In this document: in pieces, positions 38,470-39,386 of the stretch
Position numbering within the stretch: the stretch's first letter is position 1
Layout of the letters: the number at the start of each line of letters is the position of its first letter
Source of the DNA: Alistipes sp.
Lineage (GTDB): Bacteria > Bacteroidota > Bacteroidia > Bacteroidales > Rikenellaceae
DNA: 64,000 nucleotides
Direction of reading: 5' to 3'
Assembly: GCA_017399485.1 (NCBI GenBank)
Contig: JAFQCA010000023.1
Location: forward strand, 62,001-126,000
Notes under the pieces: model-generated
Database searches by the model: none
What the model saw: the letters and a program-made list of their open reading frames with translations, nothing else
Told to the model about the DNA's origin: nothing
Position numbers and translations under genes: made by a program

Positions 38470-38640
38470 ATTCCTCGATAGCCAATCTCTGTTTTCAAAA
38501 TCGTAGTAGCGTGAAACCTTCTTTGGCGGACTATTCTCCCGCGTTAAGGACTGAAGGTGATTACCAGGTCGGACTAAACTCCTCCTCGTAATGAAATTAC
38601 AACGAAAAAGTTGATAATTTCGATTTTTTGCAAATTTTTG
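38470..38640. other. Unassigned intergenic sequence, possibly an interspersed repeat
   Basis: No protein gene is evident. The TAGTCCG-type heptamer occurs twice on the minus strand (reverse complement of CGGACTA near 38534 and 38569). A stem ACCTTC/GAAGGT (about 38516-38557) encloses a GCGG/CCGC hairpin. On the minus strand one frame stays open through this stretch (containing RYYDFENRDW), which resembles short recurrent peptides in Bacteroidales intergenic repeats; that resemblance is from memory only. It could also be a decayed mobile-element end or a structured RNA. Confidence 0.35.
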
Positions 38641-38649
38641 GTACTTTGT

Positions 38650-38680
38650 TTTGCATAGTAGTAATAATTGTATATATTTG
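38650..38680 (+). promoter_or_regulatory. Strong Bacteroidetes promoter in the 0.9-kb gap
   Basis: TTTG (38650-38653), exactly 19 nt, then TATATTTG (38673-38680). Transcription should start near 38687. No known protein gene follows for 700 nt; the transcript would first run into the hairpin cluster at 38729-38835. Confidence 0.7.
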
Positions 38681-38686
38681 TAGTGC

Positions 38687-38921
38687 CGCTGGCAAGGATT
38701 ATTACAAGAAAATTATATACTAAATTACACAACCGTAGGTTGTACCTCATTCGGAGCCTTGAAAAGGCGACCAAAGCCCCTGCCTGAGGCGGGGGTTGGG
38801 GGTGGGTCAGACTTGTAAATGCGGCTAAAAGCCGCAACGTATGCTTAAAGAAGCAAAACGACTTAACAGAAGTGTAATATAGTATGTAAGCACCTATTAC
38901 AATTACCAAATTAAAACTATT
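38687..38921 (+). ncRNA. Candidate structured RNA or long structured leader with four hairpins
   Basis: Downstream of the promoter, four perfect hairpins follow in 107 nt: ACAACC/GGTTGT (38729-38743), GCCTT/AAGGC (38756-38768), an 8-bp stem CCCCTGCC/GGCGGGGG with one wobble (38777-38795), and GCGGCT/AGCCGC (38821-38835). G-runs after the third stem could also form a quadruplex. No Rfam family is recognised. It could be a small RNA, a leader of the 37-codon ORF at 38922, or REP-like hairpins caught behind a promoter. Confidence 0.45.
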
Positions 38922-39035
38922 ATGAAACAATTATCTTTATCGCTACCATCTGTTGCATTATGTGATGCACGGGTCGCATCTATCGCTATTTTTGAATTTA
39001 CCCCCCCCCTTGAAAAATTACTAAAGGGTTATTAA
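38922..39035 (+). CDS. Short ORF (37 codons) containing the poly-C repeat, doubtful
   Basis: ATG 38922 opens a 37-codon frame that runs through nine C (39001-39009) as Thr-Pro-Pro-Leu and stops at 39033-39035. The 15 bases around its start (AAAACTATTATGAAA, 38913-38927) are identical to those around the start of the transglutaminase-like gene (39378-39392). It may be the fossil start of a duplicated or interrupted secreted-protein gene; its hydrophobic N-terminus MKQLSLSLPSVAL is signal-like. With one C more or fewer the frame changes, so the length of the peptide depends on tract length. Confidence 0.3.
   Translation: MKQLSLSLPSVALCDARVASIAIFEFTPPLEKLLKGY
38993..39025. repeat. Poly-C tract repeat (9 C), copy 2
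   Basis: TGAATTTA, nine C (39001-39009), TTGAAAAA, TTACTAAA. It shares both flanks with the tract at 3411-3462, so the two probably belong to one dispersed repeat family. Confidence 0.5.
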
Positions 39036-39151: not shown

Positions 39152-39321
39152 TGTCATTCCGAGCGAGTGCAACGAGCGTGGGAACGCGGCGATTAAGGCG
39201 AGATAGAGGTTGCTTGCAAACTATACCGAGCCGCAGCCGTGAAAAGCCACGAAGTGGATTAATCTCCTACCTTATTTGATGAGGGAGATTGCCACGGCTT
39301 GTACCAAGCCTCGCAATGACA
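39152..39321. repeat. Inverted-repeat intergenic element (170 bp, REP/MITE-like)
   Basis: The element begins TGTCATTCCGAGCGAG and ends CTCGCAATGACA, imperfect terminal inverted repeats. Inside are hairpins such as CCAC/GTGG and AATCTCC/GGGAGATT. This layout matches a kind of dispersed non-coding repeat I know from Bacteroidetes genomes. It ends 65 nt before the transglutaminase-like gene and thus may carry or disturb its leader. Confidence 0.6.
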
Positions 39322-39386
39322 CCAATGAGTACAATACTCCTAAAGTGGATAATCCCAATTTGTTAAATAAAAAACTCAAAACTATT

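Follow-up and report, generated by a model that had tools for sequence, protein, structure and literature searches.

Within the 64,000-nucleotide stretch of Alistipes sp. DNA that was analysed (the window), a cluster of short hairpins behind a promoter is very likely the result of the insertion of a roughly 187-bp MITE in the 5' leader of a gene, today decayed, for an outer-membrane protein, with a transposase that we propose to act in trans and with a persistence that would be based on the fold. As judged from alignments, the hairpins make up a single copy, 187 bases long, of a very small non-coding element spread through Alistipes-type gut bacteria, in which the fold is kept. Both the hairpins and the promoter are real, yet they are parts of two separate things joined by insertion. 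The first-pass annotation of this DNA had described a good promoter followed by four perfect hairpins in a non-coding stretch, and had offered a small RNA, a structured leader or REP-type hairpins as possible readings.

When 38650-38921 was searched against the own genome, 17 matches were obtained, nearly all confined to 38711-38895, and about 15 copies of the element were found in this genome, the full-length ones being 84-97% identical. Alignment of the copies with their flanks delimits a unit of about 187 bp, starting with GGTAATTATATACCAAATTACAC and ending with GTGTAATATTGTATGTAAGCACC, which contains all four hairpins and a fifth one and excludes the promoter. Imperfect terminal inverted repeats of about 24 bp (GGTAATTATATAC.../...GTATGTAAGCACC) bound this unit, and the corresponding features of the window are the following:

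38700..38707, + strand: target duplication, left copy TATTACAA, an exact direct repeat of 38895-38902, present as a single copy at the empty site of locus L022
38708..38894, + strand: MITE copy of 187 bp, with 16 further matches in the own genome and ends mapped by alignment
38708..38731, + strand: left terminal inverted repeat GAAAATTATATACTAAATTACACA (consensus GGTAATTATATACCAAATTACACA), 17 of 24 bases matching the reverse complement of the right end, with pattern matches in the own genome
38871..38894, + strand: right terminal inverted repeat AGTGTAATATAGTATGTAAGCACC, from the end alignment
38895..38902, + strand: target duplication, right copy TATTACAA, an exact 8-bp direct repeat of the left copy

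The 18-nt terminal arms of the window copy are 89% complementary. Ungapped complementarity of the ends reaches 15-19 of 24 bases in 12 of the 17 end-mapped copies and 9-14 in the remainder, some of which have indels. An exact 8-bp duplication was observed for 8 of these 17 copies, and at least 7 of the 8 positions agree in 11 of them, the ends being mapped by motif and the copies coming from three genomes (G000, G078 and G002). When 272 flank pairs from different copies were taken as a control, no exact duplication was observed and the level of at least 7 of 8 was reached in 3 pairs. Because it is dispersed, non-coding, bounded by terminal inverted repeats, associated with an 8-bp target duplication and matched by an empty-site paralogue, 38708-38894 is assigned to the MITEs, and these sequence features make it very likely that this copy of a dispersed non-coding mobile element has a MITE origin. 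The membership tests found all the sequence features of a MITE, a proven transposase partner excepted, with the caveat that, in other species, the ends of many copies are decayed or unrecognised. The non-coding character claimed at first pass is confirmed, the sole open reading frame of at least 40 aa across the element being a spurious antisense one of 118 aa.

The promoter and the remains of the gene that it precedes lie on either side of this unit:

38650..38680, + strand: Bacteroidetes-type promoter TTTG-N19-TATATTTG, an exact pattern match, outside the element and conserved in the intact relative L022 (G000:C47)
38922..39035, + strand: stub of 37 codons (start and region of the signal peptide) left from a decayed gene for an outer-membrane beta-barrel, aligning with the first part of the gene for 786 aa at G000:C47

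The window contains 3 occurrences of TTTG-N19-TATATTTG, where shuffles predict 0.25, and 3 occurrences were reached in 0 of 100 shuffles. The promoter call is thus upheld by the exact pattern at 38650-38680, by its frequency above chance in the window and by the presence of the same promoter in the intact relative of the downstream gene. At L022 (G000:C47), the same promoter, leader and start codon are followed by an intact protein of 786 aa, with CarboxypepD_reg-like and OMP_b-brl_3 domains. The leader of L022, CTATTACAATTATTTAATAC, contains one TATTACAA and lacks the element. When the window flanks were joined with one copy of the duplication, they aligned through to L022 with a score of 197, compared with 109 when the element was present. 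This alignment identifies L022 as a related gene copy showing the site without the insertion (an empty-site paralogue) and, together with the stub, it indicates that the promoter and the hairpins became neighbours through insertion. The promoter at 38650-38680 is the native promoter of the decayed downstream outer-membrane beta-barrel gene.

The hairpins and the conserved core of the window copy are the following:

38729..38743, + strand: hairpin 1, ACAACC-GTA-GGTTGT, read from the sequence
38753..38841, + strand: conserved structured core (model R1, 89 positions), 105.1 bits and E 9e-23 in the window, family-wide
38756..38768, + strand: stem A, GCCTT-GAA-AAGGC, with compensatory variants across copies
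38777..38795, + strand: stem B, CCCCTGCC-TGA-GGCGGGGG, with one T.G wobble and, in the set chosen independently of stem B, compensatory variants
38796..38819, + strand: conserved single-stranded G-rich stretch TTGGGGGTGGGTCAGACTTGTAAA, near-invariant in the 60-copy alignment, its GGGGGTGGGT part being fixed by the search pattern
38820..38836, + strand: stem C, TGCGGCT-AAA-AGCCGCA, unselected by the search, with 42 distinct 5' arms
38843..38854, + strand: fifth small hairpin GCTT-AAAG-AAGC, read from the sequence and recurring in copies

All four hairpins described as perfect are thus present, but stem B is not strictly so owing to its T.G wobble, and the fifth hairpin is to be added. The strand folds at -70.3 kcal/mol, compared with a shuffled mean of -51.2 (z -4.87), and 0 of 200 dinucleotide shuffles were as good. 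A search of the element for an intrinsic terminator (a G+C-rich stem followed by a U run) gave no match on the + strand and one weak match on the - strand, at 38745-38727. The Rfam comparison proposed at first pass came back empty, Rfam 15 giving no family-model match over the window at gathering score, nor over 38600-39000 at E up to 10. Two copies of the distant congener G002 (L179 and L188) have the same ends and an extra hairpin-rich stretch between stem B and the G-rich strand, which could be a nested insertion or the gain of a module. The core is also found in tandem, with a spacing of about 95-160 bp, in several species (L042, L051, L127, L144, L157 and L158).

Since stems A and C lie outside the search pattern, their variation is a fair test of pairing. 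In an anchored and unselected set, the own arms of stem C were paired at 0.748, compared with 0.602 when the arms were swapped between copies (maximum of 0.649 among 500 swaps). In an alignment made with MAFFT, without fitting to the structure, 27 double-changed cells were counted against 2.5 after shuffling, with 0 of 500 shuffles as high. Two model-fitted sets, which lean towards the model, gave 178 against 48.8 and 44 against 3.3; sliding the partners by 1-3 columns in the model-fitted sets abolished the signal. Stem B is invariant in the pattern-selected set and shows compensated variants in the wider set (CCCCTGCC/GGCGGGG, CCCCTCCC/GGGAGGGG and CCCCCTTT/AAAGGGGG). The covariation search recommended earlier is therefore positive, the stem arms changing together far above the shuffled controls in related genomes, and these alignments establish, at the level of sequence, that Alistipes-type bacteria share a conserved three-stem core whose arms vary in concert. 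A further GACC/GGTC pairing closing stem B was dropped on inspection, its changes not being compensated.

The pattern made of stem B and the G-rich stretch was found in at least 110 stretches of a public genome collection, and those listed all belong to Alistipes, to Rikenellaceae or (twice) to a Bacteroidales isolate. With the covariance model R1, the core was detected in 24 of the 37 genomes searched within the genus. Across the family, 75 of 200 genomes had it; these represent 5 of the 22 genera, and some of them contain 21 copies or more. Among the 24 genomes taken from other families of the Bacteroidales, 0 had the core. The genomes compared are mostly metagenome assemblies. The distant congener G002 has the same ends and core as the window element. 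Neither the element nor the core was found in plasmids, phages and viral contigs; five viral contigs that matched the end pattern were rejected, as no hairpin core is found in their sequence.

Two other origins have to be weighed against that of a MITE. A stand-alone small RNA, or a regulatory leader, transcribed from the 38650-38680 promoter would be suggested by the good promoter just upstream and by a strand that folds better than all shuffles; the promoter, however, lies outside the repeated unit and is common to a relative without the hairpins, other copies of the element have the hairpins without TTTG-N19-TATATTTG, and the downstream gene is a stub, all of which make such an RNA highly improbable. 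Scattered copies of the hairpin set, which the first-pass annotation had itself set against its reading, are precisely what the 17 matches in the own genome revealed. The small-RNA and structured-leader readings are consequently abandoned as explanations of the origin, the same hairpin set being dispersed in the genome and joined to a separate promoter by insertion. If this promoter still fires, the insertion puts the hairpins into a transcribed leader, so that effects on RNA stability are still possible. The REP-type reading was the nearest of those offered, in that the hairpins do form a dispersed repeat, but the repeat, with its terminal inverted repeats and its target duplication of 8 bp, is of the MITE type and not of the REP/BIME type. 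To our knowledge, Y1 enzymes make no target duplication. The element shares with REP/BIME sequences its palindromic and extragenic nature, its many copies and its sometimes tandem arrangement, and differs from them by its inverted repeats and 8-bp duplications, which point to a DDE-type and not to a Y1-type mechanism. With 187 bp and five hairpins, it is also longer than the REPs, which are extragenic palindromes of 20-40 bp with RAYT partners that are Y1 enzymes (PMC3733652). Mobilisation of a REP/BIME-type repeat by a RAYT (Y1 tyrosine) transposase is therefore scarcely credible, and for full-length copies it is refuted by the target duplications.

For the MITE, we propose that a transposase supplied in trans would recognise the GG...CC ends and cut with an 8-bp stagger. 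IS1595-family insertion sequences make 8-bp target duplications and have ends starting with GG; the element resembles them in both features and differs by having no transposase. An IS1595-type enzyme would be the best candidate. A congener (G064) encodes an IS1595-type transposase of 301 aa (DDE_Tnp_IS1595 at 1.7e-38), and about 690 bp upstream of it, in the right orientation, lies GGCACTTATATAGCAGATTACACA, which agrees at 20 of 24 positions with the left end of the element. This motif occurs once in the G064 genome, and reversed controls gave none. A second end of this candidate was not found, and the contig stops about 520 bp after the gene; the G064 transposase may be regarded as a lead to the mobiliser. 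Transposases of the IS1595, ISL3, IS1 and IS256 families were searched in 61 genomes of the genus, and no match to any of the four was obtained in the own genome. End-pair scans of the collected loci revealed no convincing full insertion sequence and no autonomous partner with both ends. At L183 (1501-2000; G000:C13:8560), GTCATTCC repeats bracket a small ORF which, judged from the sequence by eye, resembles a GIY-YIG (URI-type) endonuclease and could form a mobile nuclease-repeat pair.

Once inserted, copies would persist between genes, the transcribed element folding into compact hairpins tolerated by the neighbouring operons; alternatively, the hairpins would tune the stability or the processing of the joint transcript. 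Selection on the transcribed fold would keep the stems. One orthologous pair of copies (G201 L371 and G198 L355) is identical at 84 of 84 core positions, compared with 23 mismatches at 160 positions in the flanks (14%; Fisher p 4e-5; one locus). Taken together with the stems that change on both sides, this frozen copy suggests that the fold matters, or that it is re-made by palindrome correction. We lean towards the maintenance of the fold by selection rather than by mutation bias. Selection at the DNA level, for instance for transposition, is one of the three readings of the persistence of the fold that remain.

Palindrome correction would explain the paired changes by template switching at quasipalindromes during replication, with no selection acting on the fold, and in agreement with it the changes are nearly always two-sided and the double changes far outnumber the wobble intermediates. 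The mechanism is established in E. coli (PMC7202029). Correction should, however, remove the T.G wobble of stem B, which 69 of 74 ruminant-clade copies retain, and it leaves inexplicable the conservation of the unpaired stretch, of which the GGGGGTGGGT part is fixed by the search pattern; we hold it to be doubtful, though a serious contender. A mobile origin after which the host would have recruited the core as a BOX-like regulatory RNA in operon gaps, with individual copies under selection, seems to us rather unlikely. The covarying stems and the orthologous copy frozen over 84 bases with diverged flanks are in agreement with such a role, as are the sense bias and the tight spacing to start codons: in co-directional gaps the element is in sense orientation 46 times and antisense 25 times (p 0.017; 110 independent loci), a modest bias based on heuristic longest-ORF gene calls and on loci that are not fully independent within one genome, and most sense copies end 42-69 nt before a start codon. 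Against it, the frozen copy is located between convergent genes, apparently beyond a terminator hairpin, and need not be in either mRNA, so that this locus does not speak for the operon reading; the genomes compared have few orthologous copies in common (2 pairs); and a wobble-pair strand signature is lacking, GT and AC mispairs in stem C being equal (8 and 8), which gives no sign that the RNA strand rather than the DNA folds. An action of the element at the RNA level in operons is plausible without being what we expect. A further and, in our opinion, improbable reading is that of a Rikenellaceae-wide structured element spreading as a MITE, of which individual copies would be host regulatory elements, the C-rich/G-rich stem and the GGGGGTGGGTCAGA single strand being read by an RNA- or ssDNA-binding factor. 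If true, this would represent a mobile regulatory RNA class absent from Rfam.

Among described systems, the closest in its way of working is that of the Streptococcus pneumoniae BOX elements, which are interspersed and non-coding, have a strong secondary structure, lie next to genes and are co-transcribed with operons, and for which a mobilisation by an IS transposase with similar ends has been proposed (PMC3049150). The likeness is one of kind: BOX elements are modular (boxA-boxB-boxC; PMC3049150), whereas the Rikenellaceae element combines one fixed three-stem core with a single-stranded G-rich stretch, ends of the GG...CC type and a duplication of 8 bp. The nearest described MITE of the same order (Bacteroidales) is BrickBuilt of Porphyromonas gingivalis, which is likewise intergenic with predicted stem-loops and is present in 19 copies, with a 23-nt minisatellite, ends like those of ISPg1/ISPg9 and irregular target duplications (PMC4596501); none of these last three features was seen in the Alistipes element. 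A human-microbiome survey of structured RNAs mentions one Alistipes candidate (PMC8040213), which is a different thing from the window element, being located upstream of ribosomal protein L20. No description of an Alistipes MITE was found in the literature, a weak evidence of novelty as most subscription journals were outside the scope of the search. The element accounts for 'mystery hairpins' that recur as a class in Alistipes-type gut genomes, and it calls for caution, since arrangements of a promoter and hairpins can be accidents of insertion. Its many natural copies in known orientations could serve to test selection on the fold against palindrome correction in bacterial hairpin repeats, and the same family could be used to test the tuning of operon expression by MITE hairpins in Bacteroidales.

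Other repeats are found around the insertion. A second dispersed palindromic repeat, of the GTGATTACCAGGTCGGACTAAACTCCTCCTCGTAATGA type, lies at 38521-38600 of the window, with many partial copies in G000, G014, G035, G069 and G078. Within the stub gene, a C homopolymer of about 9 bases (39000-39010) is a possible slippage site. Beside the stub, 39152-39322 forms a third repeat-like inverted unit, TGTCATTCCGAGCGAGTGCAACGAGCG...CGCAATGACA, and the hairpin element has similar GTCATT-type units next to it at some of its copies (for example L280 and C33).
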